Assembly: GCA_007859835.1 (NCBI GenBank)
Contig: SJPJ01000001.1
Span: 7,869,651-7,933,650 of the forward strand
Direction: 5' to 3'
DNA from: Novipirellula herctigrandis
GTDB lineage: Bacteria; Planctomycetota; Planctomycetia; Pirellulales; Pirellulaceae
Length of the DNA: 64,000 nt
The first letter of the stretch is position 1; each line of letters begins with the position of its first letter. The notes beneath the pieces are model-generated. The model was not told the origin of the DNA. It searched no databases and saw nothing but the letters and a program-made list of their open reading frames with translations. Below are positions 39,551 through 61,731 of this stretch, piece after piece. The translations under genes were made by a program, and so were the position numbers.

Positions 39551-40978
39551 TCATTCGACGGACTTCGCAAGTGGTTTTGGATTCTCGACGAACGCGGCGG
39601 GTCTGCTGTTGTCGGCAATGTCTTTTGCGAACGCCTTCAGATGTTGCTGTAGTCTTCGCACGACTTCCGGATGCGACGTTATGACGTTTTTGTTCTCACC
39701 GATATCGCTCTCCAAATCATAAAGCTGCGTGGGTTTTCCATTGTTCGTATGGAGTTTCCAGCTTCCCGACCTCACCGCGCTGAGTGTGTTTCCGCGGTGA
39801 TAAAAGAATGTCTCGTGCGGTGTTTTCGCCTTGCCGACGAGCGTTGGCCAGATGTCTTTGCCATCGATGACTCGATCGGTTGGAATCTTCGCGCCAGCTA
39901 GCTTCGCAAACGTCGGCAACAGGTCCATGGTTGTCATGAGTTCGCTATTGTCTTTGCCTGCAGGGATCTTTCCCGGCCAACGGGCGACGGTCGGCTCACG
40001 CATGCCGCCTTCGAAAGTGGTGCCTTTGTTTCCACGCAAGGGACCGGGACTCGCGAAGATGGTGTTTTTCGGTGGCCCGTTGTCAGACGTGAAAAGGACG
40101 AAGGTGTTTTCGTCAAGTCCGTTTGCCTTAAGCGTGTCTAGGATTCTGCCGACGGACCAGTCGATTTCGGCGATCGCCTGATGGAAGAGTTTGTCCCGCG
40201 TTCGGTAATCGATATTCGCGTTTTCCGTCTTCAACGTCGCCACGACTTCATCGGAGACGGTTTCCATGAATGGAGGCGAAACGTGCAACGGCGCGTGGGG
40301 GATGGGATGCGGAATGTAGAGAAAGAACGGCTCGTCCTTGTTCCTCTCGATAAATGACACCGCGTGTTCGGTAACTCGCTTCGTCAGGAAGTCGGCATCG
40401 GGATCCATCTCGATCACCGTTTCATCTTGCAGCAAAGGCAGCGGAGGAAAGTGGTAGTGATTCTGTCTCGGATGAAACGGATGGATATCGTGGCTGTAGG
40501 GGATTCCGAAATACTCATCGAAGCCTTGCTTGGTTGGTAGAAACTCTGGCTGATCCCCGAGGTGCCATTTGCCGAAGATCCCAGTCCTGTAGCCGACCGT
40601 TTTCAGAACTTCGGCGATGGTGATTTCACCGGGATTCAATCCCTTTCGGTCTCCGGCGAGCAGCACTCCGAAGTTTGAGCCCATCGCCATGTCGATGCGT
40701 TTCGGGTAGCACCCGGTCATCAGGCCGGCACGAGAGGGAGTGCACACTGGAGCCGCCACGTAGAAACTGGTTAGCCGAGAACCCTCCGCGGCCATCTGGT
40801 CGATGCGAGGCGTAGTAACGTGTTTACCGCCAAAGCAACTGAGATCACCGTAGCCCTGGTCGTCGGTGAAGATGACGATGAAGTTGGGTTTGTTATTTTC
40901 AGCGCTGAGCAGTGGAACGAACATTCCGCTCAAGCCTGCAACAACAAGGTATAAAATGAGATTGGTATTATTTAGCAT
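39551..40978 (-). CDS. Type I sulfatase
   Basis: A 475-residue secreted sulfatase. Signal peptide (LILYLVVAGLSGMFVPLLSA), IVIFTDDQGYGDLSCFGGKH with the metal-site Asp pair, and APVCTPSRAGLMTGCYPKRI with Cys79 as formylglycine precursor. GKWHLGDQPEFLPTKQGFDE, SFIERNKDEPFFLYIPHPIP and FTSDNGPPKNTIFASPGPLR are further family motifs. The C-terminus (LYDLESDIGENKNVITSHPE) is typical. The order of motifs is close to the sulfatases at 44.5 and 51.0 kb. It begins 41 bp after the GH116 gene, so it is probably co-transcribed with it. Confidence 0.93.
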   Translation of the reverse strand: MLNNTNLILYLVVAGLSGMFVPLLSAENNKPNFIVIFTDDQGYGDLSCFGGKHVTTPRIDQMAAEGSRLTSFYVAAPVCTPSRAGLMTGCYPKRIDMAMGSNFGVLLAGDRKGLNPGEITIAEVLKTVGYRTGIFGKWHLGDQPEFLPTKQGFDEYFGIPYSHDIHPFHPRQNHYHFPPLPLLQDETVIEMDPDADFLTKRVTEHAVSFIERNKDEPFFLYIPHPIPHAPLHVSPPFMETVSDEVVATLKTENANIDYRTRDKLFHQAIAEIDWSVGRILDTLKANGLDENTFVLFTSDNGPPKNTIFASPGPLRGNKGTTFEGGMREPTVARWPGKIPAGKDNSELMTTMDLLPTFAKLAGAKIPTDRVIDGKDIWPTLVGKAKTPHETFFYHRGNTLSAVRSGSWKLHTNNGKPTQLYDLESDIGENKNVITSHPEVVRRLQQHLKAFAKDIADNSRPAAFVENPKPLAKSVE

Positions 40979-44510: not shown

Positions 44511-45956
44511 CTACTCCTTTTCACTTGGATTTAGCAAGCCATGGGGGCGCTGATCCGAACCCATGACTTCAACATCGCCGACCTCTGCGCGGATACGTTT
44601 GGCCTCCTTCATCAACTCAGCAACCAGTTCCGGATGCTGTGAGTAGACATTCGTTTTTTCGCCAACGTCGGTATCCAAATTGAACAACATCGGTTGTTTC
44701 AACGAGAGATGAATCTTCATACGATTCCCTCCGGCTCTTTTGGCCCAATAAGGCTGATCCGCAATCGTGCGTGGCAGATGCAGTTTCCACTTTCCCTTGC
44801 GCACGGCCTGCAGATTCAAACCGTTGTAGTAGTGGAACGTTTGGTGAGGACTTGGGCTGGTTTCGCCGGTCAGCAGATGAAAGATGTTTTTTCCATCGAT
44901 TTTGCGATCACGCGGCAGTTGAACGCCAGCTACATGACAGAACAGCGGCAGCAAATCCATGCTGGTGATCATGGCATCGGAAACCAGCCCCGCGGGAATC
45001 CGACCTGCCCAGTGAAAAATTCCCGGCACGCGGTGGCCACCTTCCATCGTGACATACTTTCCTCCGCTTAGCGGCTTGGCGGATCCATTTACGGCTGGTC
45101 CGTTATCCGACAAAAAAACAATCAACGTGTGGTCACCGATACCAGCCTCTTCCACCGCCGCACGCACCCGTCCAACACTATGATCGAGTTCCAGAAGAAA
45201 ATCGGCGTACGCACCTGCCCGGCCTTTGATACCGGAGGTGCCATTGAAGGCATCGCTGGGCAGAATAGGACTGTGTGCGATGTGATGAGAGAAGTAGATA
45301 AAGAACGGCTCCTCTCTCTTCTCCCCAATAAAGGCAACGACCTCATCGGTGTAGAGTTTCGTCACCTTTTCAAATTCAATATCCGTTTCCTGGACCTTGC
45401 GATTCCGGTAAAGAGTATCCGCATCCCGATGCTCTGGTTTTGAGGAATAATTCGCATGAAGCCCCAGGTATTCATCAAACCCGGCATCGAGCGGATGAGA
45501 ACCGTCGACGTGAAATCCAAGGTGCCATTTGCCGACCATCTTATTGTGATATCCCGCTGTCTTCAGCAGTTCGGCAATGGTCAGCTCATCGGGAGCAATC
45601 CCGTATTTCGCATACTTTGGCGTATCATGTCTTGAGATCGGATGCCCACAACGCATGGGATAACGCCCCGTCATTAGAGCTGCCCGGGAAGGCCCGCACA
45701 CGTTGGCCGCCACCAAACAATCGGTTGAACGAAATCCCTCGCTCGCCAACCGATCGATCTCCGGCGTACTTCGTTTCGCGCCATAGCAGCCCAAATCGCC
45801 GTAGCCGACATCATCCACAAAAATCAGAATGATGTTTGGTGCTTGAGCCGGCGTCTCCGCATAAGCCATGTTCATCACTGCCATCGCGATCAACAGGCAG
45901 GCACTTAAACGCAGTTCACTCGTCGTGTAGGTCATGTTGATGCCTGTTTCCATCAT
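44511..45956 (-). CDS. Type I sulfatase
   Basis: A ~481-residue secreted sulfatase. Signal peptide (LSACLLIAMAVMNMAYA), then IILIFVDDVGYGDLGCYGAK and AANVCGPSRAALMTGRYPMR, where the Cys of CGPSR (residue 87 from the chosen start) is the formylglycine precursor. GKWHLGFHVDGSHPLDAGFD, IYFSHHIAHSPILPSDAFNG and FLSDNGPAVNGSAKPLSGGK follow. Several starts are possible: GTG at 45965, ATG at 45956 or 45953, and ATG at 45935; the last puts the signal peptide closest to the N-terminus. It follows GH97 by about 80 bp and precedes GH116 by 95 bp. Confidence 0.92.
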   Translation of the reverse strand: MMETGINMTYTTSELRLSACLLIAMAVMNMAYAETPAQAPNIILIFVDDVGYGDLGCYGAKRSTPEIDRLASEGFRSTDCLVAANVCGPSRAALMTGRYPMRCGHPISRHDTPKYAKYGIAPDELTIAELLKTAGYHNKMVGKWHLGFHVDGSHPLDAGFDEYLGLHANYSSKPEHRDADTLYRNRKVQETDIEFEKVTKLYTDEVVAFIGEKREEPFFIYFSHHIAHSPILPSDAFNGTSGIKGRAGAYADFLLELDHSVGRVRAAVEEAGIGDHTLIVFLSDNGPAVNGSAKPLSGGKYVTMEGGHRVPGIFHWAGRIPAGLVSDAMITSMDLLPLFCHVAGVQLPRDRKIDGKNIFHLLTGETSPSPHQTFHYYNGLNLQAVRKGKWKLHLPRTIADQPYWAKRAGGNRMKIHLSLKQPMLFNLDTDVGEKTNVYSQHPELVAELMKEAKRIRAEVGDVEVMGSDQRPHGLLNPSEKE

Positions 45957-46043
45957 GGGATTCACTCTCGTTGTTTCACCGGCTGGGAATTTTGGCGAAT
46001 CCCCATGCGGCTTGCCTCTTCATTGCCCTCGATTCACGAATCC

Positions 46044-47903
46044 CTATTGGCTCGGCCGCAGGATCATTGCATGCCCACCACCGACGGCCATCTTGGCCGT
46101 TATTGCCTCGCCGCGTTGCACGGTCGAAGTAATAATTTCGAAGGCTTCCGCGTTGTTCACGCCGTGCGCATCAGACGTATCCTGATAGACAGTGGCCTCG
46201 TAGGTCTTTCCGGCCTCGAGGAAGTCAAGCGGAACTTCCAACGTTCGCTTGGTCTGATCGCTGACCGACCCGACAAACCAGGCATCACCGCTGCGGCGGG
46301 CGACCGTGATATAGTTTCCGATCTTGGAATTCACGACTCGAGTGTCGTCCCAAGTCGCAGGCATGATTTTGAGAAACTCAAACAGTTCAGCCTTCTTCTG
46401 ATATTCCTCTGGTGCATCAGGTAGTGTCACAAGCCCTGTGTAGATCACCAAATTGCGGGCCACTTCGCTAACCACCGTCGAGACATAACTGTTCTTCTTC
46501 CTAGGCCCCTTTTCGCGTTCACCAGCATTGATGCTGGTGATTCCGAAATTCCCGTTGGACATATCCAGCGGGCCGCAGAGCGCACTGACCATTGCCATCT
46601 TCAGGAAGGTTTTGGGTGTAAAAGCACTGCGGCTGTCTTGCTGTGCATGGCAGTATTCGCGGGTGATCAAGTTGGGCATCGTCCGTTCCACCCCCGTCAT
46701 GGGCACCGGTCCGTCATGAAAATTAATGAGCAGTTTGTTTGCCGCGGCGGCATTGATTGCGTTTCGGGTGAAGCCGGCTTTATTGCCCATAAAACCATAC
46801 TTCATCCCTGCGGCGCCCAGAGACGCATAATGTTCGAAGAGCGTTTCGTCGCCAAAGTTACCCTTCTTGCGATCGTAGTAGAGCATGATCTTGACGCCTT
46901 TCTCTTTGGCGTAGGCCATCACTTTGGCAATGTTGACTTCAGGAGCGACGGTCATCTTCCCATTCCCTGCTTTCTTGTACCAATGATCGTCAATGGTGAA
47001 GTATTCGATCCCCTGCGCTGCGCAAAAATCGATCAGGTGCAGATAGCTGCGAGTATCAATGCCATAGGCAAACTCACCGTTGTTGTAGCCGTGAATCCGC
47101 CAGTCCCAAAGTCCTTTGCCAGGCTTGATCCAGCTAGTATCCGCCAGCTTGCAGGGTGCAGCCAGGTTCAACGCCACGGTGTTGACGGTCAAATCCCCGG
47201 CCGACTCGCCAATCAAAATCACTCGCCACGGTGTGAGCTGCCCTTCGCCCATCGCAACCGCAGAACTGGTGGCTACAAGCCCCTTGACTGCCGTGGAATA
47301 GCGAATTCGCATGCTCTCAAAATCGGCTGCCGAATAGAGATCCGACCCGAGCAAGGCGACGTGCAAACCGTCCCTGCGCACGGTCACCAAGGGCACGGAA
47401 ATACTCTTTGCTTTCGTCATGCTTCCGATCTGGACGCCACGTTGTCCAGCATAATGCGCCGCGCCGTTGAGCACCTTGTACTCGCTGGAATAAGTCATGG
47501 ATTGACCCGCGGCCTTTTTGGATAACACAAAACGGAATCCAATGCCCGTGTCGAACGCGCGGCAAAGCAATTTCACCGGTGTTCCGTCTGCCGTCAACGA
47601 AAGAGTTAGCTCACGATGATGGTCGCGGATCGTACTGAATTGGCCGTAGACCGGTTTCCAACTCGTATCACTCTCGCGAACCGATTGATCAACGATGGTC
47701 ATCTTCGCCCCGGCAAAGATCTCCAATTTGGAGGCGCCGACCAACCGCTTGTCTCCCTTGGAAACGGAATAGAACAATGCTCCGTCTTTCACCTCAAACG
47801 ATGCCGCGACTTTTTCGTCCGGAGATCGAACAATCGTGGGGGCCGCAAACAGATTCGTCGCAGCCGACATGCTTACAATCAAAAGCCACGTGTATTTCTT
47901 CAT
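46044..47903 (-). CDS. GH97-family glycoside hydrolase, divergent subgroup
   Basis: A 619-residue secreted protein. Signal peptide (TWLLIVSMSAATNLFA), then the N-terminal beta-supersandwich typical of GH97 (LFYSVSKGDKRLVGASKLEI, HHRELTLSLTADGTPVKLLC), the barrel (KGLWDWRIHGYNNGEFAYGI, EYFTIDDHWYKKAG, INFHDGPVPMTGVERTMPNL, ITREYCHAQQD) and a C-terminal beta domain. In retaining members the nucleophile Asp lies in a KVDF-type strand; here that place reads KYGFMGN. The second catalytic region reads CHAQQD where others carry Glu. This marks a separate subgroup with a different catalytic setup, not a broken gene, since the rest is intact. GH97 enzymes act on alpha-glucosides or alpha-galactosides. 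A good ribosome site (agaggaaa) precedes the ATG. Confidence 0.88.
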   Translation of the reverse strand: MKKYTWLLIVSMSAATNLFAAPTIVRSPDEKVAASFEVKDGALFYSVSKGDKRLVGASKLEIFAGAKMTIVDQSVRESDTSWKPVYGQFSTIRDHHRELTLSLTADGTPVKLLCRAFDTGIGFRFVLSKKAAGQSMTYSSEYKVLNGAAHYAGQRGVQIGSMTKAKSISVPLVTVRRDGLHVALLGSDLYSAADFESMRIRYSTAVKGLVATSSAVAMGEGQLTPWRVILIGESAGDLTVNTVALNLAAPCKLADTSWIKPGKGLWDWRIHGYNNGEFAYGIDTRSYLHLIDFCAAQGIEYFTIDDHWYKKAGNGKMTVAPEVNIAKVMAYAKEKGVKIMLYYDRKKGNFGDETLFEHYASLGAAGMKYGFMGNKAGFTRNAINAAAANKLLINFHDGPVPMTGVERTMPNLITREYCHAQQDSRSAFTPKTFLKMAMVSALCGPLDMSNGNFGITSINAGEREKGPRKKNSYVSTVVSEVARNLVIYTGLVTLPDAPEEYQKKAELFEFLKIMPATWDDTRVVNSKIGNYITVARRSGDAWFVGSVSDQTKRTLEVPLDFLEAGKTYEATVYQDTSDAHGVNNAEAFEIITSTVQRGEAITAKMAVGGGHAMILRPSQ

Positions 47904-47949: not shown

Positions 47950-50900
47950 TCAATTCGAGGCAGGCACTAGATCAAAACGTTCGATGAAAGGGAGCGAACC
48001 TTTCTGTTTGCCAATGTGTACGCCCCACTGAATCCGTTTACCGGCACCGCTATCGGAAAAGGCTTCTGGACGATACGCGCCGGCTGCGGTCGGGACATCG
48101 ATCACGTTGTGCGTCTTCGAGAAATGAAGCCCGTCGTCGGCAACCATGATGGAACGGGTAATCTCTTTCGGGCCGGTCGTTCCGATCATGGCGGCAACAC
48201 CCTTGCCCTGCGGCCAGACTAGCACTTCGTGGTTGCCCGGAATGACAGGATTGTCTTCAACCCTTTTGTAAGGACCCTGCGGTTGAGACGCGATGGCCAA
48301 GCCAAGCTTCGTTTCTGCTGGGCTTTTTCCCAACTGCCGGCCCTTGTAGTAGAACCAGTACTTTCCCTCTCGCACGACTAGGCAGGCATCATCAATCAAG
48401 TGACTGTCGAAATCCTCTGGGTTATCACTGTTTTTCAGCGCCGGGTTGGTGTCGAGACGCTCCCAGGGACCATCGGGGGAATCGGATACTGCGATGCCTA
48501 TTTTTGAATCCGGATTGAATCCCTTACCGAACTGCCTGGAAGTGCCTGTGTAGAACAGCCAATAACGTCCCTCGGCAATTAGAATGTTGGGAGTGAAGAC
48601 GCTGGCCGCGTCCCAGCTTCCAGGTTCGCCCTTGGCAAGAGCCATTCCTTTTTCCGTCCATGCGTGGCCATCAAGCGAAGTCGCGTACCAGACGGTTGCG
48701 TCGTATCCTGGAGAAATTGTTCCCTTGGAATACCATAGGTAATACAGATCGCCGACTTTAATGATGTCGCTCGGATCCCGGCGCATCACACCTTCTTCAA
48801 CTCCGATGCCTTGCGCTTCGGAATAGGTCGCCTTCAATGTCGTCAGTTCAGGGGCCTGCGTTTCTGAATACTGGACCAGCAGTTCTGCATCGAACTGAAA
48901 GTTGTCGGCCGTGACATGTCCCCAACCCGTTGTCGAATCATCGACGATCTTGATGAACATCTTTTTGCCGACATAGGGAGCGAGATTCCAGACGGCCCTT
49001 TGCATCAATTGGTTGTTGACTCCACTCGCCGTTTCCACCTCGGTGCCGTCTGCGGTGCAAAGGGCGACATAGGTGGCCGGTCCGCCACCACCACCGACCC
49101 GGAATGTCATTTCGCCGCCTTGGGGAATAAAAAGCGGCGAGACAATCAAACCGGTCTGCTGGTCCGATCCTCTTTCGGCGGTCGCGCTGGTTTCGAGCGT
49201 GGTCAGGTAGTAATCGCCCTGCTTGTTGCATTCGCCCTTGTTGTGAAAGAAGCGGTCGCGGTTACCGACGATATGATTGAATTGTCCCTCGACGACTTTC
49301 CAGGGCTCTAGTTTGCCTGACTCGAAATCAAAGGTCGCGCTCCGAGTGCTTGGCATGGCCGCAGTCCTCTTTGCGGCCCCATTCGTTGCAGCCGCGTTCC
49401 CTGTCTTGGGAGCTGAACGACGCTTTGGCGGAGCATAGGTTGAGAGCAGCTTGCTCATTTCCTCAACCACTTCGGGATATTCGTTGTACAGGTTTCGCGT
49501 CTGGTTCACGTCTGCTTCCAAGTCATAAAGCTGAGCAGGCGGGGCATCCTTCTTGAGTCGTCCGTCTTCGATGTCGCTGTTGACGCCACCGACGAACTGA
49601 ACAGCAGGTGGACCTCCCCAGGCATGATGACTCGGTTGCGAACCGGTAAACCCGCCGCTGCCTCGGGCTCCGATATAGATCCAGTTGCCTTTGCGGACGG
49701 CAAGATGACTCTCTTTCTTGGGGGCCAAAATCAAATCCTTACGAATATTCTGTTTCGGATTTTCCAGCAAAGCCGGCAGAACGTTGACGCTGTCCTTGCT
49801 CTGCAAGGCTTGGGAGTCCTGCCCAGTGAGCGCTGTGAAGCTGGCCAACATATCCACATTGCAGATGAGCTGATCCGATTCAGTACCTGCTTCGATCTTT
49901 CCGGGCCACTTGGCGATGAACGGAACGCGGTGTCCGCCTTCCCATGCGCCGAATTTGAATCCGAGAAGGTCCCCGTTAATGAGATGGCCCGCCCTCACTG
50001 CATTTCGTCCTCCAAGATTTAGCATGCCTCCATTGTCACTTGTGAAAATCACCAGCGTGTTTTCGCTCAAGCCCTGCTTCTCAAGGCACCCGGTCACTTC
50101 CCCGACCATCCAGTCCAGCTCTTGAACGAAGTCGCCGTAGAGCTCCGCATCGCTGGATCCCTGGAAATCTTTTCCGGGCGTGAAGGGATGGTGAATATGA
50201 GTCGTGGCCAGATAGAGAAAGAACGGCTGCTGGTTGTTGGCAGTAATCCAGTCGACGGCCTTGTTCGCCAAGACGGTTCCCACCGTATAGTCGTTGTATT
50301 TCTTGTGAGCTTCCACAGCCCCTTTGAACAGATTGGCTGTTCGCTGAGAGGCCTCCGGTGGAATTTCGGTAATCGGTGTGGCCACCTCATTATGCCCTCT
50401 GCCGATATAGACCAGAGGATCTGCAGGATCGCCGCCAACAATGCGATCATTCTCGACATAGACATAAGGAGGAGCGCTATTAACGACGGGCAGACCATAG
50501 TAGTAATCAAAACCGAGATCCTGCGGACCGGGACGCAGCGGTTCTTGCCAGTTATTTGTTCCCGCGCCGAATCCCAGATGCCACTTGCCCAGCGCTGCCG
50601 TAGCGTAGCCTTGGTTCTTGAAGACATCGGCGATCGTCACCTTTTCTGTGTCGACAATGAGCCCCGACGTAACCGGTGCTGGCCCCCACACGCCGGCGCC
50701 GTCATTGGCCCGAAGCGGATACTCTCCCGTCAACAGTGCATAGCGTGAGGGCGTACAGACAGCGGAGGCCGAATGCGCATCGGTAAACCTGCGTCCCTCT
50801 CTGGCCAACTGGTCGATGTTGGGCGTCTGCACCTTCGTCGCGCCATAGCATCCCAGGTCACCATAGCCCAGGTCATCCGCAAATATGAGAACGACGTTGG

Positions 50901-50970
50901 GTTGCTCAGCCGCGTTAAGCGGCAGGGCCAACCCAATGCTGATGGTACATATGAGGATTAGGGTTTTCAT
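47950..50970 (-). CDS. Three-domain fusion: sulfatase, beta-sandwich, GH43/GH117-like propeller
   Basis: A 1006-residue secreted protein. Signal peptide (LILICTISIGLALPLNA). Residues ~24-500 are a complete type I sulfatase: VVLIFADDLGYGDLGCYGAT, SAVCTPSRYALLTGEYPLRA with Cys72 as formylglycine precursor, GKWHLGFGAGTNNW and FTSDNGGMLNLGGRNAVRAG. A Lys/Ala/Pro-rich linker (YAPPKRRSAPKTGNAAATNG) leads to a beta-sandwich at ~545-697 (TFDFESGKLEPWKVVEGQFN, MTFRVGGGGGPATYVALCTA, GWGHVTADNFQFD). Residues ~725-1006 form a five-bladed-propeller type hydrolase (RRDPSDIIKVGDLYYLWYSK, SWDAASVFTPNILIAEGRYW, FYYKGRQLG), close to GH43/GH117. Both catalytic parts look intact, so one chain could remove sulfate and cut a glycosidic bond. 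The ATG overlaps the preceding sulfatase stop (ATGA). Confidence 0.9.
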   Translation of the reverse strand: MKTLILICTISIGLALPLNAAEQPNVVLIFADDLGYGDLGCYGATKVQTPNIDQLAREGRRFTDAHSASAVCTPSRYALLTGEYPLRANDGAGVWGPAPVTSGLIVDTEKVTIADVFKNQGYATAALGKWHLGFGAGTNNWQEPLRPGPQDLGFDYYYGLPVVNSAPPYVYVENDRIVGGDPADPLVYIGRGHNEVATPITEIPPEASQRTANLFKGAVEAHKKYNDYTVGTVLANKAVDWITANNQQPFFLYLATTHIHHPFTPGKDFQGSSDAELYGDFVQELDWMVGEVTGCLEKQGLSENTLVIFTSDNGGMLNLGGRNAVRAGHLINGDLLGFKFGAWEGGHRVPFIAKWPGKIEAGTESDQLICNVDMLASFTALTGQDSQALQSKDSVNVLPALLENPKQNIRKDLILAPKKESHLAVRKGNWIYIGARGSGGFTGSQPSHHAWGGPPAVQFVGGVNSDIEDGRLKKDAPPAQLYDLEADVNQTRNLYNEYPEVVEEMSKLLSTYAPPKRRSAPKTGNAAATNGAAKRTAAMPSTRSATFDFESGKLEPWKVVEGQFNHIVGNRDRFFHNKGECNKQGDYYLTTLETSATAERGSDQQTGLIVSPLFIPQGGEMTFRVGGGGGPATYVALCTADGTEVETASGVNNQLMQRAVWNLAPYVGKKMFIKIVDDSTTGWGHVTADNFQFDAELLVQYSETQAPELTTLKATYSEAQGIGVEEGVMRRDPSDIIKVGDLYYLWYSKGTISPGYDATVWYATSLDGHAWTEKGMALAKGEPGSWDAASVFTPNILIAEGRYWLFYTGTSRQFGKGFNPDSKIGIAVSDSPDGPWERLDTNPALKNSDNPEDFDSHLIDDACLVVREGKYWFYYKGRQLGKSPAETKLGLAIASQPQGPYKRVEDNPVIPGNHEVLVWPQGKGVAAMIGTTGPKEITRSIMVADDGLHFSKTHNVIDVPTAAGAYRPEAFSDSGAGKRIQWGVHIGKQKGSLPFIERFDLVPASN

Positions 50971-52460
50971 TTCTCTCTCTTTTTTCGTGTCCTGGTTGGT
51001 TTTCGTATCGGGTGTCGTCTTTGTCGCTCGTTGGCGATGAATTCGGCCGTGGCGGGGGGAACCCTTCCCCAATCCTTTTCGTGACTAATGACGGGAGCAT
51101 CGGGCACAATGGATCCGGTACGCCGCTGTCCGCTGCCGCGGCGCATGTACTCGCCCAACTCTCTGCGCATGGATGTTGCCAGTTCCGCCATCTCCTGCAC
51201 GATCTCCGGGTTAGCAGACGCCACATCCGAAGTCTCTTCTGGATCCGTCCGCAGGTTGTAGAGGACCGGGCGTTTGATATCGATAAACGCCTTGTTCTTG
51301 TCCCAGAACGGAATCTGTTTCAGCTCGCGAGGCAAGTGCAGTTTCCAGTCGCTCATCCGGACGGCTTGGAGATTTTCGCAATTGTAGTAGAAAAACGGTT
51401 GCGCGCGTTGCCGTGCCAGCGGTTCGCCCACCAACAGCGGCATCAGGCTGACGCCATCGTAAGTCCGATCTTGCGGCATCGGGACTTCGATAATCTCCGA
51501 TAATGTCGGGAAGACATCCATCGCGTTGATGGGCACGTCTAACACACGTCCCTGTTTAATCTTTGCTGGCCAGTGGAGGATGAAGGGAACGCGATGCCCA
51601 CCCTCGAAGGTGACATACTTCGTGCCGCGAAATGGTTTGGCGTATGTGTTTTCCGTCGGGCCGTTGTCCGAGGCGAAGATGACAATCGTGTTGTCGTCAA
51701 TTCCCACCTCTTTCAACGCTTTCATCATTTCCCCGATGCTCCAATCCAATTCTTGAATCACATCGCCGCGCACCCCATCTTGCGAAGAGCCCTCAAACCT
51801 CTTGCCGGCTTGGTAAGGCGTGTGCGGGTAATTGTGCGCGTAGTACAGGAAGAAGGGCTGATCTCGCTGTTCACGGATGATCTTCGTGATACGCCGAGTG
51901 TAAAGCTCCGTCAGTCGATCAAGGGGCGTGCGCGCGAAAACCTCCTTCTTGCCGTCGAAGAATCTCGGCGAATGAGCAAAGTTGCAGGGCATGCCGTAGT
52001 AGCTGTCGAATCCTTGCACCAGAGGATGGAACTCGGGTTCCGTACCCAAATGCCACTTGCCGACCATGAAGGTTTCGTACGCCTGCTTGCTGAACTGTTC
52101 GGGCAGCGTGATTTCCGAAGGATCCAATCCGAGGAACCAGTGTGCCCTGCGAATTGGATTGATGCCCATGTAGAGACCAGCACGCTGGGAATAGGCGCCC
52201 GTCAAGAACGCCGCTCGAGACGGCGAGCAGATGGACGCTGCTGTGTGAAAATCAGTGAATCGGATTCCACCGGCCGCCAACCGATCGATATTCGGTGTCT
52301 TGACTTTCGTTGCGCCGTAACATCCGATGTCGGAGTAGCCAAGATCATCCGTTAGGACGAAAATGACATTGGTAGACGCAACGTGCTCGGACGCCAGACA
52401 CGTTGCGGATAACACGGCAATAGCGAACACGTAGATTATGATTTGAGTCGCTTTCGTCAT
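50967..52460 (-). CDS. Type I sulfatase
   Basis: A 497-residue secreted sulfatase. Signal peptide (IIIYVFAIAVLSATCLA), VIFVLTDDLGYSDIGCYGAT with the metal-site Asp pair, and AASICSPSRAAFLTGAYSQR with Cys78 as formylglycine precursor. GKWHLGTEPEFHPLVQGFDS and FASDNGPTENTYAKPFRGTK follow the family order. The last ~50 residues form a basic tail (RRHPIRKPTRTRKKREK), unusual in a secreted enzyme and perhaps used for binding acidic polysaccharide; this is inference. It overlaps by 4 bp both the truncated DUF2961 gene before it and the sulfatase/GH fusion after it, so all three are translationally coupled. Confidence 0.93.
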   Translation of the reverse strand: MTKATQIIIYVFAIAVLSATCLASEHVASTNVIFVLTDDLGYSDIGCYGATKVKTPNIDRLAAGGIRFTDFHTAASICSPSRAAFLTGAYSQRAGLYMGINPIRRAHWFLGLDPSEITLPEQFSKQAYETFMVGKWHLGTEPEFHPLVQGFDSYYGMPCNFAHSPRFFDGKKEVFARTPLDRLTELYTRRITKIIREQRDQPFFLYYAHNYPHTPYQAGKRFEGSSQDGVRGDVIQELDWSIGEMMKALKEVGIDDNTIVIFASDNGPTENTYAKPFRGTKYVTFEGGHRVPFILHWPAKIKQGRVLDVPINAMDVFPTLSEIIEVPMPQDRTYDGVSLMPLLVGEPLARQRAQPFFYYNCENLQAVRMSDWKLHLPRELKQIPFWDKNKAFIDIKRPVLYNLRTDPEETSDVASANPEIVQEMAELATSMRRELGEYMRRGSGQRRTGSIVPDAPVISHEKDWGRVPPATAEFIANERQRRHPIRKPTRTRKKREK

Positions 52461-52738: not shown

Positions 52739-54247
52739 CTACTGCTTTGAATGGATGCGAAAACCGTTGACGATTTGCCCCGGTAAGGTATCGGCTAACT
52801 CGATCGTCAGCCCGGAAGCGTTCCGATTCCATTTGATCTTCTCGTCGCTGCCCATCAGTTCAATGCTCGCAATTTCACGGTCGAACAATCCGCCGCTTGC
52901 GAGCGTCTTGATCACAATGTCCTGTGTCGGCGGCGCTAGAACGAAGGCGTACAGCACACCGTCTTTGGTAGTGAAGCGAATGTCCTGTTGCGAAAATTCA
53001 TGATGGTTTTCTCCCTGGCGGCCATCTTTGACTTTCAATGGCCCTTCACCAAAAGTCTTCCAGGGGCGGGTACCGTAAATTCCCTCGCCGTTGATCTTGA
53101 GGAAATCGCCAAAGGCGGTCAGATAGGCGGCTTGCTTTTCAGGCAAGGTCCCATCGCCGCGCAAGGCGACGTTGAGCATGACCACCCCGTTTTTGCTCAT
53201 CGCATCGATGCCATTGCCAACCATCACCGGAATGCTCATCCTGTTGACAGCGGTTTTCCGATAGAACCATCCGCCCGAAAGATCGGTCGCCCACATCCAG
53301 GGTTCGGGCTTGATTTCTCCGGCGCCTCCTCGTTCCAGATTGTAGGTGAACGCGGCTCGGTCTTTGTTCCCATCTTTGAAGGAAAGTACAACCGTTTGAT
53401 TCCCGTTGTTCTCCTTGAGATCGCGGTTGACGAAATCCGTAAAAAGTTTGACGCCAAGTCCCTTACCGCCTCCGATTTTCGGATAGGGGGAATCGTTGTT
53501 GAACATGTCCGGGTCATACTTTTGGATAATGTCCCAACAACGCGCATACCAGTGTTCGTTCCAACTGTCCTGAGTCGCATACCCACTTGGGCTGTAGTCC
53601 ATGTTGAATAATTGCCACTCGGCTGTAGCGGGCTTTTGATACTTGCGCGCGTTGGCAAAGAAACGCGGTGACCAATAGAGATGAGTCGAGACACCGAATT
53701 TGAGTCCATGTTTGGTTGCCGCTTCTTTCCATTCCTTGAGCGTGTCACGTTGGGGTCCCATGTTCACAGAGTTCCATGGATGGAACGAATCATACATATC
53801 GAAATTATCATGGTGACACGCCACCGGCATCACAAATCGGGCACCATTGTCTTTCACAAATTTCACTAAGGCGTCGGGATCCCACTTCTCGGCCTTGAAT
53901 AATGGGATCAGGTCCTCGTAGCCAAACGCTTCAAGAGGTCCATAACGCTCGATATGCCACTTGGTCAGAGTCTCGTTCATACTCAGATCTTTGTCCGCCT
54001 TGCCTTCCGGCGGTGGTGAGTACATCCGCCGACCGTAGTGCGAGCCATCGTTGGGGCGGTTTTCATCGGCAGCGGACGAGATTCCCCAATGAAACCAGAC
54101 GCCGATCTTGCCGTCCACAAACCATTCAGGAACCTGATAGTTCGCGGCCAAGGACTCCCAGGTCGGTTCAATGTCCGCGCCCGAAGCGACTCCTGCTAAT
54201 AGGCTCACGCCGAGCAAAACCTTCAAATATATCATCAAGAATCTCAT
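52739..54247 (-). CDS. GH29 alpha-L-fucosidase
   Basis: A 502-residue secreted fucosidase. Signal peptide (IYLKVLLGVSLLAGVASG), then the GH29 barrel: GKIGVWFHWGISSAADENRP, ARFVMPVACHHDNFDMYDSF, LKFGVSTHLYWSPRFF and YDPDMFNNDSPYP, where Asp252 stands at the nucleophile position of the usual WFDG motif. The barrel is followed by a C-terminal beta-sandwich. The replaced residues around the nucleophile (FNND) place it in a different GH29 subgroup from the copies at 6.1 and 58.4 kb. Its ATG overlaps the stop of the beta-helix gene (ATGA). The natural substrate is probably a fucoside in a sulfated polysaccharide, by context. Confidence 0.92.
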   Translation of the reverse strand: MRFLMIYLKVLLGVSLLAGVASGADIEPTWESLAANYQVPEWFVDGKIGVWFHWGISSAADENRPNDGSHYGRRMYSPPPEGKADKDLSMNETLTKWHIERYGPLEAFGYEDLIPLFKAEKWDPDALVKFVKDNGARFVMPVACHHDNFDMYDSFHPWNSVNMGPQRDTLKEWKEAATKHGLKFGVSTHLYWSPRFFANARKYQKPATAEWQLFNMDYSPSGYATQDSWNEHWYARCWDIIQKYDPDMFNNDSPYPKIGGGKGLGVKLFTDFVNRDLKENNGNQTVVLSFKDGNKDRAAFTYNLERGGAGEIKPEPWMWATDLSGGWFYRKTAVNRMSIPVMVGNGIDAMSKNGVVMLNVALRGDGTLPEKQAAYLTAFGDFLKINGEGIYGTRPWKTFGEGPLKVKDGRQGENHHEFSQQDIRFTTKDGVLYAFVLAPPTQDIVIKTLASGGLFDREIASIELMGSDEKIKWNRNASGLTIELADTLPGQIVNGFRIHSKQ

Positions 54248-56436
54248 CGAGTGTTGGTAGAACGTAAACCGATCTGGGACAGATCGATCGGAGTGATGCC
54301 CAGTTTCAACGCGGGCGATTCCAGCTTAAACCTGAAGTCGCCATTCTCCGGATCAACAAACAGCGGATCGATGGCCACGCTGTGTGCGTCCACGCCATCG
54401 CTCTGTTGTTTGTTTAGCATTGTCTCGCTTAGGCTATTGTCTTCCGCGCAGTAGTAAATATTGTAATCCGTGTCCGCATCCATGGACTTCGCCAGTTTTC
54501 GCCCTCTGCGATCCTCGGAAGTTCGACCTTTTCCCGGTGGCAACTCATCAATGAACGTACAGGTCGCTGAGGACGAGTAGAAGATGTTTCGCTTGATCGT
54601 TGCACCCGTCAGGGGACCTTCGCGGACTGCCAAATAGTAGCCGCGAGGCGGGGCAATGATGTCTGCGACAATGTTGTTCTCGCAACGATTGTTCAGCTTC
54701 ATTAGAATGCCTTGCGAAGTGCATTTGAAGATCAGATTCTCTGCGATGAGAGTGTCCCTTTGCCCGCCATCGGTACGAATCGCGGCCTGCATTTGCGTCG
54801 GTGCGACCAAGTGGTGGACATAGTTGCGGCGAATCACATTCCCCGCGCCTGCGCCGCGTATATAGATAGCGTTTCCATCGCCCAACATTTCCATCGCATG
54901 ATGGATTTCGTTAGATTCAATAACGTTGTCATGCGTGTGAAGATAAGGACGCACATCTTCCAAATCTGGCTTCTTCGGCAAGCGGGCAATCTCATGCGTG
55001 CGAATGGTTCTGCTGAGTTCACGACCCTGTCTGGTAAAGAAATCTGTCATGCAACCAGAAATGATGATTCCGGTGTAGGGAGTGTGATGAACCAAGTTGT
55101 TCGCCACGCGATTGTTTCCACTCTGCCAAATCATGATGCCTGGCGAGTGCGAATAAACCTCCCCAATATGATGAATGTGATTGTTGTAGACGAGGTTGTC
55201 TCGATTTACATCCTTGGTGCCTGGACCATAGCCGCACAGCAGAATGCCGGCACCTCCCATCTGCTCGATCAGGTTACCGGAGATCTTGTTATGTTGTCCG
55301 TACAAATCGACACGAATGGCGCCGCTGCCGCTGTGAGCAAACCGACATTGCTGGATCGTGCAGTTCTCGGCACCGCGTAGGCGAACCAATGCATTGGCCT
55401 TGTCGTGCATATCCCAGTCATGCTGTAGTCCCGCATCGTCTTGGGACAATTGGTAGCGATCCCCATGCATGAAAGTCAGACCACGAAAGCACAGGTTTCG
55501 CACTGGCACGTCCTTTGGCCCGATCTTGTCGACCTCGCCCTCAACGCGGATCAACTCCGTTAGTTGCGGAGCCAAAACGGGCGACTCGCTGCGCGGCCAG
55601 AGATAGAGTTTGCCCTCCTTGGTATTGAGCACCCATTCGCCCGGTTCGTCGAGTTCCTCCAACACATTCTCAACCCAACACGACGGAGTCTTTTTCAAAA
55701 AGTGAAGTTGGTTCATCGCGTAGGTCGCGTCGACGGATGAACGAGCAATCTGCGTTTCCTCGTTAACTGAAACCAACGGCAGGATGTTTACGATCCAGGC
55801 GTGATGTGGACGGACGACCATTTCCACATCTTCCACGTTCGACCAGTTCTTCAACCGACCTTGGGGGAAGTGCAACTCGTTTCGGCTACCACCGGACAGC
55901 GGAATGAAACCGGCCGATCGCGCTCGCGGCAGCAGACCGTCGGAATCATAAAGCGTGTAAAAACGGCGTGTAACATCCGCCACTCGGATTTTTCCTCGGG
56001 CCACTTCTGGTAAGCCCGGTAGCTCGGCGGTCACCATTTGCCAACCCTTGATCTCCTGCGCCGAACTGAACACCGGCGTCTCGCCGGGATACGCCTCGTA
56101 CGTTATCGTCGCATCGCCAGTGCCCGAATCTTCCAGGCCGAACACAACCGGCTCACTCCGTTGGTAGACCCCCTCGCGAATGTGCACGAGAATATTTTTC
56201 GAACGCTGATGCCGCTTCCGTTCGCGTACGGCATCACGCGCGCGGCTTAGTGTCGCAAACGGACCGTCGCTGGTCTGCGCATTAGGATTCGGAAGTGTCC
56301 CGGACCACTCGTCGGAACCCGCGGCAGATACATAGAAATCGGCCTTTTCTGCTGAATCTGTCTCTGCAGCATTGCACACACTTCCGGCAAACAGGGTCAG
56401 TACGCCGAGAAACAGGCTCTTTGTACTACTTCTCAT
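54244..56436 (-). CDS. Secreted right-handed beta-helix protein, GH141-like
   Basis: A 730-residue secreted protein. Signal peptide (SLFLGVLTLFAGSVCNA), then DFYVSAAGSDEWSGTLPNPN, FATLSRARDAVRERK and ILVHIREGVYQRSEPVVFG, the standard start of a right-handed parallel beta-helix. The helix repeats are visible as CTIQQCRFAHSGSGAIRVDL, NKISGNLIEQMGGAGILLCG, NLVYNNHIHHIGEVYSHSPG and NRVANNLVHHTPYTGIIISG. Arrangement and length fit GH141, a family with alpha-L-fucosidase and xylanase members. Given GH29 enzymes on both sides, a fucosidase role is the likeliest, by context. The ATG at 56436 starts the signal peptide; the frame upstream runs into the sulfatase gene. Confidence 0.82.
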   Translation of the reverse strand: MRSSTKSLFLGVLTLFAGSVCNAAETDSAEKADFYVSAAGSDEWSGTLPNPNAQTSDGPFATLSRARDAVRERKRHQRSKNILVHIREGVYQRSEPVVFGLEDSGTGDATITYEAYPGETPVFSSAQEIKGWQMVTAELPGLPEVARGKIRVADVTRRFYTLYDSDGLLPRARSAGFIPLSGGSRNELHFPQGRLKNWSNVEDVEMVVRPHHAWIVNILPLVSVNEETQIARSSVDATYAMNQLHFLKKTPSCWVENVLEELDEPGEWVLNTKEGKLYLWPRSESPVLAPQLTELIRVEGEVDKIGPKDVPVRNLCFRGLTFMHGDRYQLSQDDAGLQHDWDMHDKANALVRLRGAENCTIQQCRFAHSGSGAIRVDLYGQHNKISGNLIEQMGGAGILLCGYGPGTKDVNRDNLVYNNHIHHIGEVYSHSPGIMIWQSGNNRVANNLVHHTPYTGIIISGCMTDFFTRQGRELSRTIRTHEIARLPKKPDLEDVRPYLHTHDNVIESNEIHHAMEMLGDGNAIYIRGAGAGNVIRRNYVHHLVAPTQMQAAIRTDGGQRDTLIAENLIFKCTSQGILMKLNNRCENNIVADIIAPPRGYYLAVREGPLTGATIKRNIFYSSSATCTFIDELPPGKGRTSEDRRGRKLAKSMDADTDYNIYYCAEDNSLSETMLNKQQSDGVDAHSVAIDPLFVDPENGDFRFKLESPALKLGITPIDLSQIGLRSTNTR

Positions 56437-56488
56437 GGATAAGTCTTTCTTTCCCTTGGACGCGACCCTGCCGCAACGCATAGTAAAC

Positions 56489-58294
56489 TCAATCAAGGCT
56501 AGTAACGACGACGTAGTAAGCGCCCAATTCCCCTTCCTTGATCTCAAATACAGGGGCGAGCCGATGGGATCCCTTTTTGAGTTCGGTTACGAAGCTGACC
56601 TCCTCGGCGTCTTTCCCTACCGGTTTTCGGTCGAGATCTTGATCGTCAACGCGAAGCACCGCGTGAGTGGCGCCGATGGCGTTTCCTTTGACGCAGCGAA
56701 AAGCTTGCGTTGCACCAGGGACATCCTCGCCTGCGGGAAGATCGGCATTGATGGCAGCTCCGGATTCAGTGGGCCAGCGGCGAAGCGCGACCCGATATTT
56801 CCCATCCTTGAGAACCTTGACCGCCCAGTAACCCAAGTGTTTGAGCTTTTCGCTGTCGCGGTGCTTGCGATCTGCCTCGCGAATGGAGCCTTGGTGCCAC
56901 GGAGGATAGATCTTCTGGATCCAATCGTGTGCGGTCAGGCTAACGACCGGGTGTTGTGGGTGACCGAGGTAGATCTCGGTCGTTTGCGCGAAGGTAGGTT
57001 CAAGCTCGGCCCACCACCCGTCGTAAAACTCCCGCATCGCTTCGACGATTTCTGGGTGTTTGTCGGCAACGTTGTTCTTCTGTCCGGGGTCCGAGGCAAT
57101 GTTGTATAGCTCTTTGCGATTGACGAGTCGAAACTTGCCAAACATCACCGACGAACTACGCCACTTGATCGGATCGCGAACGCGTTGGGAATCACTGATC
57201 ACAAACCGCTTGGGCCAATCAACGTCCTTGGTTGGGTCCAGCAGATCGGCAATCGAAACACCATCGAACTTCACTCCCTCGGGCTTCTTCACACCGGTCA
57301 TTTGAAGAAGAGTCGGGACAATATCGACTGCGTGTGTCAGCTCATTGACGTCATGCTGTTTGGTAAGGCCACCGCTAGGCCAATGCACAAAGAACGGAAC
57401 ACGGTGCCCTCCCTCGTACGGGCTTCCTTTGCCTGCTCGCATCCCAGCGTTGTAGACTTTTGCGCCGCTGGCCGTCCCGTTGTCCGTGGTGAAAATGAAG
57501 ATGGTATCGTCGGCGATTCCCAGTTCTTGGATCAACTGGCGTGTCGCGCCGACGTTGTCGTCGATATTGGTGATCATGCCGTAGAAAGCAGCGATGCTGT
57601 CGGACTGCCCTTCATACATGTTGAAATACTTCGGTGGGCAGTGCAGTGGTTTGTGGGGTGCGTTGGTAGAAATGTATGCGAAAAATGGCTTCTCTTGCTT
57701 GGCACACTTGCTGATAAACGCCTGGGCCTGCTCGAAAAAGACGTCAGTACAGAAGCCACTGGCGGGAACGATTGTACCGTTGTGAAAATACGAACCGTCA
57801 AAGTAGGCGTTGTCCCAAACGTCGGGTGTTTGGCCGATACCGCCACCGCCATGTCGGTAAACCTCGGTGAAACCGCGGTCCTCGGGACGATAGGGATAGT
57901 TGTCACCGAGATGCCATTTTCCAAACATGCCGGTTTCGTAGCCTGCGTCGGAGAACATTTGGCCCACGGTGACTTCGTTTTCGCGTAGCATCGAACGGCC
58001 CATGATCGTATGCCAAACCCCAGTGCGGTTGGTCCAATGCCCAGTCAATAGTGAACAACGCGTGGGAGAACAAGTTGGGGCAACATGGTAATCGCTCAGG
58101 CCCGAGCTTTCCGACGCGAGCTGATCAATGTTTGGAGTCTTGATAATCGGATTGCCGGTGCATCCAAGGTCACCGTAACCTTGATCGTCGGAAATGACGA
58201 ACACCACATTTGGTGTTTTTGCTGCAACGGAAAATGCCGTTGTTGCAATGATGAAGGCGACGATGGCGAGCTGAAATTGAGTTCGATTTTTCAT
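56489..58294 (-). CDS. Type I sulfatase with a C-terminal beta domain
   Basis: A 601-residue secreted sulfatase. Signal peptide (QLAIVAFIIATTAFSVAA), VVFVISDDQGYGDLGCTGNP and APTCSPTRCSLLTGHWTNRT with Cys75 as formylglycine precursor. GKWHLGDNYPYRPEDRGFTE and FTTDNGTASGAKVYNAGMRA follow. The extra C-terminal domain (GYWAVKVLKDGKYRVALRRW, FEIKEGELGAYYVVV) matches that of the sulfatase at 32.8 kb, as do the catalytic motifs (DDQGYG, GDNYP-RP-DRGF), so the two are close paralogues. The ATG at 58294 begins the signal peptide. A 19-bp tandem repeat lies between this gene and the fucosidase before it. Confidence 0.93.
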   Translation of the reverse strand: MKNRTQFQLAIVAFIIATTAFSVAAKTPNVVFVISDDQGYGDLGCTGNPIIKTPNIDQLASESSGLSDYHVAPTCSPTRCSLLTGHWTNRTGVWHTIMGRSMLRENEVTVGQMFSDAGYETGMFGKWHLGDNYPYRPEDRGFTEVYRHGGGGIGQTPDVWDNAYFDGSYFHNGTIVPASGFCTDVFFEQAQAFISKCAKQEKPFFAYISTNAPHKPLHCPPKYFNMYEGQSDSIAAFYGMITNIDDNVGATRQLIQELGIADDTIFIFTTDNGTASGAKVYNAGMRAGKGSPYEGGHRVPFFVHWPSGGLTKQHDVNELTHAVDIVPTLLQMTGVKKPEGVKFDGVSIADLLDPTKDVDWPKRFVISDSQRVRDPIKWRSSSVMFGKFRLVNRKELYNIASDPGQKNNVADKHPEIVEAMREFYDGWWAELEPTFAQTTEIYLGHPQHPVVSLTAHDWIQKIYPPWHQGSIREADRKHRDSEKLKHLGYWAVKVLKDGKYRVALRRWPTESGAAINADLPAGEDVPGATQAFRCVKGNAIGATHAVLRVDDQDLDRKPVGKDAEEVSFVTELKKGSHRLAPVFEIKEGELGAYYVVVTSLD

Positions 58295-60015: not shown

Positions 60016-61728
60016 TCATGGTCGCCCTACTTCGTAAATGCGACGAACTTCGGAATCGCCCAAGGCTTGGCCGAAAACGATCAGTTCGTCCATGCATCCG
60101 TTGAGATTGCGAACGCGAGACGCTTGATGCCGCGGCGTGGGATCACTCCAATTGCCTATCGTCGCATTGCCAATCTTCAACAAACCGGATGCGGGCTCCT
60201 GAAATGGCTCACGCACGGTCGGCTCTCCGTTGACGTAGTGTGTTACGCACGCTTGGTCGGTGTCATAAACGGTTGCCAAATGAACCCACTGCCCTAGTCG
60301 AAACAGGTTGAAGATTGAATCGGTTTGGTACGAGTGCAAGTCACCTCGGGAACGCAGTATCCCGAGCACCAGTGATCCGTTTTGACGGATCTGCCAGTGG
60401 GGATTATTTTTGTCGAAGCCATCCGTCAGCAACAGCGAATTGTATTTGCGGTCCAGTCCGTCAACACGCAGCCAGATCGAATAGGTCAGCGATTCAAATT
60501 CGCCCGGTATCGTGATGCGCACGCGATCACCCGGTCGCTTGAACTGCAAGGATGTTTTGCCTGGCCACCGTCCTTCTGTCCACTCGCATCCAACGATAGC
60601 ACCTTCGATCAGCACACCGTCTGCGCCATAGCCCGTAAGAATGCGGTCTTCCAAGTCGTTTCGATCAAACGGGAAGTACGCAATCAACCGTAGATCGTCT
60701 TGCAGTGAGTCACGAAACGCTCGCCAGTCACGAAGCTGTTTTTTTTGCCGCCCATCTGTCATTTCACTTAGTCGATTGGGTGTGACGAAATCCGATTCTC
60801 GAACTTCGATCTGTTTTGCGGTGCCATCGTGATCGACTGTCAGTGCATCTCCTGCATTCAACTCGCGCCGTGTGGTTACGTCGCGATTCGATTCTGCGTC
60901 ATAAAGTTCGACCTTGCCAGTAAAGACATGGACTTCGGCGGCACCACCGCTCGTTACATCCAATCCAAATTCTGTCCCCAAGTCGACCAGTTCAAACTTA
61001 GGAGCAATCACGGCAAACCCTCGCGCAGGTTCCGGGACATAAGCACGGAGTCGTCCGGATCGGCAGACCACACGCGATTCATCAACGATTTCGATTTCCG
61101 CCGGTCCTTCCGCAACAACCGTCGCTCCGCCGTAAAACTCAAGCTGCAATAGTCCCGCATCCCATTTGAGTGTTCCTGGTGGAACCGTTTCGCCAGCCCG
61201 CCAATCGGATGTTTGTTCACCCAATAGACCCGAAACTCGAGTCAGCACGGCAACGCCCCGGTCGCTGGCTTCCTCCTGGCCACGATCGGTCGCCGGCCCG
61301 TTGGATGCACTTTTCCATGGCTGCGTACTGTGTTGATTGAGCACGCCCATCAACGCAAATATGGCAATCGCCGCAGTGATCCAACCTGCCATTCCTCGCG
61401 AGCTCTGCCAAACCTTTTCGCTTCTCGACGCTGCCAGCTTCGATTTCTCCGAGGCTTCTTCTTGCGCCGAGGCAACGACCCTCGCTACAAACTCACTCGA
61501 GTCTTCGGCGGCACGGATTCGGGCATGAACCGCATCCATGAAACGATTGTCACTTCGCAGTTCGTCCTCATATTGACTCAATCGATCGCTCATCAACAGG
61601 TGCTGGCGAAGCAACGTGAGCATCTTCGGATCATTAGCCACCATGCGCGTCAATTCATCCAACTGCTCTTCTGCGATATCATCATCCAGCAGCCGACTTA
61701 GCAATTCCTCAAAACGTTTCTGTGACAT
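60016..61728 (-). CDS. FecR-domain membrane protein with a C-terminal LamG domain
   Basis: A 570-residue protein. The cytoplasmic N-terminus (residues ~1-110) is helical and acidic (FEELLSRLLDDDIAEEQLDE), as in anti-sigma factors. One transmembrane helix follows (AGWITAAIAIFALMGVLN, about 113-131). Then comes a FecR domain (WRAGETVPPGTLKWDAGLLQ, GATVVAEGPAEIEIVD, LVDLGTEFGLDV) and a C-terminal LamG/concanavalin-like domain (SLTYSIWLRVDGLDRKYNSL, LGQWVHLATVYDTD, GCMDELIVFGQALGDSEVRR). LamG folds often bind carbohydrate. Paired with the ECF sigma gene 3 bp upstream, it is likely a membrane regulator of that sigma factor which senses extracellular sugar; this is inference from family and context. 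The ATG at 61728 is used; a TTG one codon earlier is possible. Confidence 0.88.
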   Translation of the reverse strand: MSQKRFEELLSRLLDDDIAEEQLDELTRMVANDPKMLTLLRQHLLMSDRLSQYEDELRSDNRFMDAVHARIRAAEDSSEFVARVVASAQEEASEKSKLAASRSEKVWQSSRGMAGWITAAIAIFALMGVLNQHSTQPWKSASNGPATDRGQEEASDRGVAVLTRVSGLLGEQTSDWRAGETVPPGTLKWDAGLLQLEFYGGATVVAEGPAEIEIVDESRVVCRSGRLRAYVPEPARGFAVIAPKFELVDLGTEFGLDVTSGGAAEVHVFTGKVELYDAESNRDVTTRRELNAGDALTVDHDGTAKQIEVRESDFVTPNRLSEMTDGRQKKQLRDWRAFRDSLQDDLRLIAYFPFDRNDLEDRILTGYGADGVLIEGAIVGCEWTEGRWPGKTSLQFKRPGDRVRITIPGEFESLTYSIWLRVDGLDRKYNSLLLTDGFDKNNPHWQIRQNGSLVLGILRSRGDLHSYQTDSIFNLFRLGQWVHLATVYDTDQACVTHYVNGEPTVREPFQEPASGLLKIGNATIGNWSDPTPRHQASRVRNLNGCMDELIVFGQALGDSEVRRIYEVGRP

Positions 61729-61731
61729 CAA

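Follow-up and report, generated by a model that had tools for sequence, protein, structure and literature searches.

A sulfatase and a GH117-like propeller in a single frame

The window analyzed here is a stretch of 64,000 nucleotides from the planctomycete Novipirellula herctigrandis (family Pirellulaceae; assembly GCA_007859835.1, contig SJPJ01000001.1, positions 7,869,651 to 7,933,650), and positions given without a contig or locus name are those of the window. On its reverse strand we found one uninterrupted frame of 1006 amino acids (window 50970–47950, from the ATG at 50970 to the stop at 47950), encoding an S1 sulfatase domain (S), a middle module (M) and a five-bladed propeller resembling glycoside hydrolase (GH) family 117 (G). 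The fusion looks genuine and lineage-specific, and resembles a known two-in-one enzyme of seaweed digestion (see below); the protein is probably secreted, its signal peptide having been judged by eye. A first-pass annotation of the same DNA had described a single polypeptide of three parts, with a linker and a beta-sandwich between two enzymatic halves, and this organization was fully recovered:

50908..50970, reverse strand: signal peptide, residues 1–21 (MKTLILICTISIGLALPLNAA), read off the sequence, cleavage site placed by eye
49441..50907, reverse strand: S1 sulfatase domain S, residues 22–510 (Pfam PF00884, phmmer, aligned motifs)
49366..49440, reverse strand: Ala/Lys/Arg-rich linker, residues 511–535 (from the sequence; Pfam gave no family)
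48868..49365, reverse strand: middle module M, residues 536–701, a jelly-roll beta-sandwich (AlphaFold2 model and Foldseek)
48844..48867, reverse strand: junction between M and the propeller, residues 702–709 (SETQAPEL), without stop, start or signal peptide
47953..48843, reverse strand: GH117-like five-bladed propeller G, residues 710–1006 (phmmer, fold model, Foldseek)

Pfam placed Sulfatase at residues 24–383 (1.9e-56) and Glyco_hydro_43 at residues 732–877 (8.3e-15), a GH43/GH32-like reading of the propeller. Two domains of catalytic type and a signal peptide stand in a single chain, an architecture of the same kind as that of the P36 protein of Formosa agariphila.

Within the fusion frame the junction contains neither a stop nor a start nor another signal peptide, the other two frames contain stops there, and only eight residues lie between M and G. 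In all 14 stand-alone G orthologues compared at this point the mature part is preceded by a signal-like stretch, as judged by eye. The uneven guanine plus cytosine content of the three codon positions persists through the join (0.62/0.43/0.62 in S, 0.64/0.45/0.55 in the 33 junction codons, and 0.58/0.46/0.59 in the propeller). A frame split by a sequencing error had been named beforehand as the outcome that would undo the claim; the frame runs unbroken and, the join being seamless, a single read error is no explanation, since one insertion or deletion cannot yield it.

The sulfatase domain

Among solved structures, the nearest phmmer match of S was 6s20 (1.2e-89), which we take to be BT3333. 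The nearest entries bearing a subfamily name were S1_15A and S1_15B, so that S appears closest to S1_15 among subfamily-named structures; the subfamily itself was left unassigned. The motifs CTPSR, DDLG, GKWHLG and SDNG are all present. The first of them follows the S1 pattern C/S-x-P-x-R with its neighbouring TG (VCTPSRYALLTG, residues 71–82), Cys72 being the predicted formylglycine, and the DD and SDN metal motifs, GKWHLG and the PF00884 match are those of an S1 family member. Asp32 and Asp33 are presumably metal ligands.

BT3333 reads the O4 of galactose through an Asp173-Arg174 pair (PMC6994673). The region of its H225, which reads O3, aligns poorly with S and the numbering offset could not be fixed there. 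At the place of the Asp-Arg pair S has Ser-Ala, within a VNSAPP motif, a mapping that takes 6s20 as BT3333 and is anchored on an Asp-Arg next to each other in that part of the alignment, where the chain count differs by two positions. The pair was found in none of 93 aligned S rows and the Ser was kept in all 93 (four of these rows are copies of the window, and some loci were fetched twice). The key motifs that the first-pass annotation ascribed to the sulfatase half were recovered, but the galactose-reading pair of BT3333 is gone. Where the action of an S1_15 enzyme is known, it is that of an exo-acting 6-sulfatase on galactose or N-acetylgalactosamine (PMC12549532, PMC10154612), which S may not share.

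The Pfam FGE-sulfatase domain, which is broader than the Cys-maturing enzyme, has twelve matches in 11 frames of the genome. A Bacteroides relative of S (L051:6173-7738) has Ser in place of the catalytic Cys (STPSRY).

The GH117-like propeller

The first-pass annotation had left the propeller as GH43/GH117-like, and of these two names only the second held. In phmmer searches against solved structures G matched the GH117 entries 5ta7 (2.2e-48) and 4ak5 (3.6e-48), the best GH43 entry reaching 2.8e-07, and with the fold model of G (predicted local distance difference test, pLDDT, 94.3) the first 18 Protein Data Bank (PDB) chains retrieved by Foldseek were all GH117 (template modelling score, TMq, 0.84–0.87; 29–33% identity). 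GH43 was rejected as the family of G, GH117 being far closer by both searches despite the Pfam match. G combines the five-bladed propeller with the sequence similarity expected of GH117, and carries the motifs RRDPS, DSH..DD, YYKG and HEV.VWP.

M and G were modelled separately. The positions of catalytic residues come from a sequence alignment in the numbering of the agar enzyme PpGH117, a numbering that was checked on the motif positions. A joint alignment of the whole fusion with its separate parts was discarded, GH117-only rows having fallen on the sulfatase. Five positions are kept in G: Asp732 (Asp90), Asp861 (Asp245), Lys876 (Lys260), His914 (His302) and Glu915 (Glu303). Two are replaced, with Asn795 for Glu167 and Thr932 for Asp320. 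The claim that the propeller keeps its key motifs thus stands for the first five positions and fails for the other two; the catalytic residues whose absence had been set as a refuting outcome are, in this alignment-based comparison, present as base and acid, with two PpGH117 residues exchanged.

In the published mechanism Asp90 acts as the base and a His302/Asp320 pair as the acid, Asp320 assisting His302, and single mutation of Glu303, Asp90, Asp245, Glu167 or His302 is said to inactivate the enzyme (PMC11574756). The same source describes the active-site His, Asp and Glu as conserved across the family with two exceptions, and G keeps all three (positions 90, 302 and 303). Thr in place of Asp320 removes the published His/Asp dyad, and neither this dyad nor Glu167, both expected of an anhydro-L-galactosidase, is found in G. 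The N-terminal helix-turn-helix dimer arm was not found either: only 30 residues (702–731) lie between M and Asp732 and the model has no helix there, a judgement by length and model that takes as yardstick the 89 residues preceding Asp90 in PpGH117 numbering, part of which may be signal peptide.

The same pattern runs through the group of propellers around G (43 rows including the window, after dropping those below 55% identity, those covering fewer than 240 residues, window copies and nested copies). Positions 90, 245, 260 and 302 are kept in all 43 rows and Glu303 in 40, while Asn stands at position 167 in 42 and Thr at position 320 in 41. Since stand-alone orthologues share these replacements, it seems likelier that G has changed its specificity than that it has lost its function.

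Ten paralogues of G in its own genome vary at positions 167 and 320, one of them (L111) having Glu and Asp like the agar enzyme. Two tandem GH117-like genes of the same group (L023:7299-9252) have, respectively, His at the place of Asp320 and Ala at the place of Glu303. A second GH117-like copy of this group in the window genome (L001:6060-7000, C1:7765104-7765979; 57–71% identical by stretch) is interrupted by stop codons and frame changes, lies beside a sulfatase gene and looks like a decaying gene.

The middle module

M was modelled as a jelly-roll beta-sandwich (pLDDT 86.8), for which Pfam gave no family and phmmer returned nothing at E up to 1. Foldseek retrieved cleaved-adhesin, MAM and carbohydrate-binding modules (best E 1.4e-05). 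A sugar-binding role is a guess, as its basis is a fold likeness with a template modelling score near 0.5. Homologues of M occur on sulfatases, on GH116 proteins and on DUF1549/DUF1553 (planctomycete cytochrome) proteins; relatives were seen at L107, L008:15914-19030, L005:1-3342, L018:2310-5816, L105 and L021:2147-6103, with GH116 and DUF1549/DUF1553 proteins among them. M is present in some long S fusions of other genomes and missing in others, and since the S of the nearest kin stands without it, M was either gained in the line of the window or lost in that of the kin.

The gene cluster and the co-occurrence of S and G

The fused gene shares 4 bases with the sulfatase gene upstream of it and belongs to a cluster in which 19 proteins were scanned, containing two GH29 genes, genes of families GH141, GH97 and GH116, and seven other sulfatase genes. 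The neighbours that concern us are all on the reverse strand:

39551..40978, reverse strand: sulfatase S475 (Pfam)
44511..45965, reverse strand: sulfatase S484 (Pfam)
46044..47903, reverse strand: GH97-like gene directly downstream of the fusion, which adjoins the GH117 orthologue in L095 too (Pfam)
50967..52460, reverse strand: upstream sulfatase S497 (frame list, Pfam)
52739..54247, reverse strand: GH29-like (alpha-L-fucosidase family) gene (Pfam)
54244..56547, reverse strand: GH141-like gene (Pfam)

Relatives of the GH141-like gene directly adjoin the GH117 orthologue in L085 and lie in its vicinity in L093, L095 and L154. At the upstream end of the cluster (60016–62301) an ECF-type (extracytoplasmic function) sigma factor gene is followed by one whose product matches LamG and, weakly, FecR, a pair that might act as a regulator. 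A transposase (DDE) gene lies beside the cluster (36085–37503), which would fit frequent rearrangement.

Among 241 Pirellulaceae genomes G was found in 41 (52 matches, E up to 1e-80) and S in 49 (70 matches, E up to 1e-150). Both occur in 37 of them, when about 8 would be expected under independence (41 × 49/241; Fisher 1.4e-28, ignoring kinship). In 21 of these 37, the window included, S and G lie on one contig within 15 kb. The window shares two of its five nearest rows, L154 and the locus of genome G030 (L093/L124), between the S tree and the G tree, and at both L154 and L093 a distance of about 3 kb separates the S gene from the G gene; a third locus, L011, is the fifth nearest in the S tree and falls inside the nine-row starred set of the window in the G tree. 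Both trees are quick ones, with SH-aLRT (Shimodaira–Hasegawa-like approximate likelihood ratio test) support only, no mixture model and many open forks.

Only five of the 52 G matches are in frames longer than 600 amino acids, namely the window and four in which G is followed in frame by a DUF6786-like part (L149:6004-8325, L150:5655-7919, L151:6299-8506 and L152:6183-8477; assigned by Pfam in L150 and by eye in the other three), the rest being in short frames. This second natural fusion suggests that DUF6786 may take part in sugar metabolism. The picture was the same in a smaller sample of 60 relatives, 8 of which had a G match, and 392 genomes drawn from the phylum added one match to that of the window genome, in a 396-amino-acid frame.

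Recurrent fusions of the sulfatase

S is found joined to several partners. Seventeen of its 70 matches are in frames longer than 900 amino acids, all of which were inspected; ten are joined C-terminally to a relative of S475 (the commonest partner), three to one of S484, two to one of S497 and one, the window, to a GH117-like domain, while the remaining frame (G108) has S-M only, with a long open start. S is thus fused in 15 of the 70 to relatives of sulfatases that are separate genes in the cluster of the window. The S484 relatives are joined to S or S-M in other genomes, and the S497 relatives to S-M at three other loci (L005, L007/L182 and L169).

On a quick tree of 101 sulfatases (106 rows less the own or duplicate copies L100, L103 and L139 and the cut rows L060 and L049) the partner label must have changed 13 times or more, by gain or by loss; the starred branches alone force four changes each for S475 and S484, and three for S497. 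Since the counts for S484 and S497 equal those with shuffled labels, only the S475 fusions are shown to cluster by kinship.

Sulfatase fusion as such is ordinary in the window genome. A scan of nine of the ten loci L159–L168 gave one frame of 1594 amino acids with three sulfatases and another with two, besides sulfatases fused to a PQQ propeller, a BD-FAE esterase, a SASA esterase, a weak GDSL-like part and YHYH.

Proposed function and alternatives

The reading we favour, to which we give roughly an even chance, is that of a secreted fusion in which S desulfates a terminal sugar and G then cleaves it, with M near the glycan and a fucose-containing sulfated target. The protein would be exported through its signal peptide and Cys72 converted to formylglycine; S would remove the sulfate from the terminal sugar, M might hold the chain to the glycan, and G would cut the alpha-linked terminal sugar with inversion, Asp732 acting as base and His914 as acid without a His/Asp dyad. 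The continuous frame with its architecture, the folds, the residues, the spread of the orthologues and the recurring fusions of S are observed; we infer the activity of both domains, the order of the steps, the sugar and the role of M, and also that the desulfated sugar is the one then cut by G. Both domains are likely active, judging from the conservation of their departures among relatives. As substrate, a fucose-containing sulfated polysaccharide is more likely than agar because the GH29/GH141/S1_15-like set of the cluster matches that of fucoidan degraders, reported to use GH29, GH141 and S1_15 (PMC12786026); a GH29/S1_15 cluster of Verrucomicrobiota has likewise been read as aimed at sulfated fucose (PMC8857213). 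Agar or porphyran is disfavoured by the changed residues and by the GH29/GH141 context.

Several observations weigh against the favoured reading. The galactose-reading pair is missing from S, and in G both Glu167, reported as essential, and the acid-assisting Asp320 are replaced. Of the 37 genomes that have both S and G, 16 do not have them within 15 kb (farther apart on the same contig in 4, on different contigs in 12). Among the other 40 family genomes with a G orthologue none was seen with G on a sulfatase, although in G005 and G108 the match starts at a contig end and its upstream part is unseen, and a pattern scan of 84,980 species, which reaches close relatives only and may omit the window's own genome, gave 75 loci and no fusion.

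That only one genome has the fusion, and that the same genome holds a broken GH117 copy, so that errors or decay do occur there, could point to an assembly or sequencing artefact joining two adjacent genes. We consider this very improbable, because the signal stretch and start seen in all 14 compared stand-alone orthologues are gone exactly in frame, and an artefact would require a precise in-frame deletion of intergenic DNA together with the signal sequence. The loss of Glu167 and Asp320, the first among the single mutations said to inactivate PpGH117 (PMC11574756), would also fit a G that had lost its hydrolase activity and served as a binding or scaffold domain. This too seems improbable, if less so: Asn167 and Thr320 are near-universal in a group whose members mostly stand alone and begin with a signal-like stretch, the base, the acid and other residues are fixed across it, and the window copy has not evolved unusually fast (end branch 0.24, median 0.15).

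A rival we take more seriously, while still thinking it rather unlikely, is that S and G both work in one pathway but attack different bonds or oligosaccharides, the fusion fixing only co-secretion and a one-to-one dosage. S is also fused to three other sulfatases, so its partner appears exchangeable, and relatives manage without fusion; the fusion partners, however, are relatives of genes from the same cluster, and the proximity of S and G orthologues in 21 of 37 genomes fits neighbouring steps. Clustering and recurrent fusions together favour consecutive steps on one sulfated glycan. Of the coupled two-step scheme in the first-pass annotation, the assignment to one pathway finds support in this context and in the recurrent fusions, and P36 is a measured precedent for a sulfatase step followed by a glycosidase step in one protein (PMC8511951); relatives with separate genes do without the coupling.

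Beyond the favoured reading, we tentatively propose, as a possibility still open to considerable doubt, that S is the hub of a modular line of exo-enzymes, catalyzing the entry step for a particular sulfated terminal sugar, with the enzyme of the next step repeatedly welded to its C-terminus. The joined GH117 group would then be an inverting alpha-glycosidase of new specificity (for a terminal sugar of sulfated fucan or galactofucan), with a lone His in place of the His/Asp dyad. The main interest lies in this fusion hub and in the altered acid site of the GH117 group, more than in the single fusion. If true, the sequence of steps in a sulfated-glycan pathway of Planctomycetes could be worked out in part from the set of natural fusions, and there would be a GH117 group, its acid apparatus changed, whose substrate is directly testable. 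Sulfate-stripping and cutting enzymes in one chain are also useful for reading fucose-containing marine polysaccharides.

Comparison with known systems

G shares its fold and five active-site positions with PpGH117 (BpGH117) and the GH117 structures 4ak5, 5ta7, 3r4y, 3p2n, 4u6d and 4u6b, and differs from PpGH117 in having Asn and Thr for Glu167 and Asp320, an N-terminus too short for the dimer arm, and the fusion to a sulfatase. The S1_15 exo-6-O-sulfatases (BT3333, BT1624 and the Pseudoalteromonas S1_15A/B 9bas/9bau) are the best sequence matches of S and have the formylglycine and metal motifs in common with it, but S has Ser-Ala where BT3333 has Asp173-Arg174.

Double sulfatases and sulfatase–glycosidase fusions have been reported in Planctomycetes, and gene fusion proposed for them (PMC4807772). 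In the Planctomycetes P1–P3 from Porphyra described there, as here, some sulfatases are joined to a glycoside hydrolase and some to another sulfatase; GH43/GH117 matches inside sulfatases were taken as distant kinship, and the available part of that paper names no sulfatase–GH117 protein. The part of PMC11131199 available has nothing on fusions, and a literature search, mostly without full text, found no sulfatase–GH117 enzyme and no case closer than P36 of Formosa agariphila (PMC8511951). In this ulvan enzyme an S1_25 sulfatase and a GH78 alpha-L-rhamnosidase are joined, so that P36 and the window protein both carry an S1 sulfatase and an exo-glycosidase in one chain, although sulfatase subfamily, glycosidase family and organism group are different. 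The domains of P36 were analyzed separately and its consecutive steps measured, whereas for the window protein we infer them.

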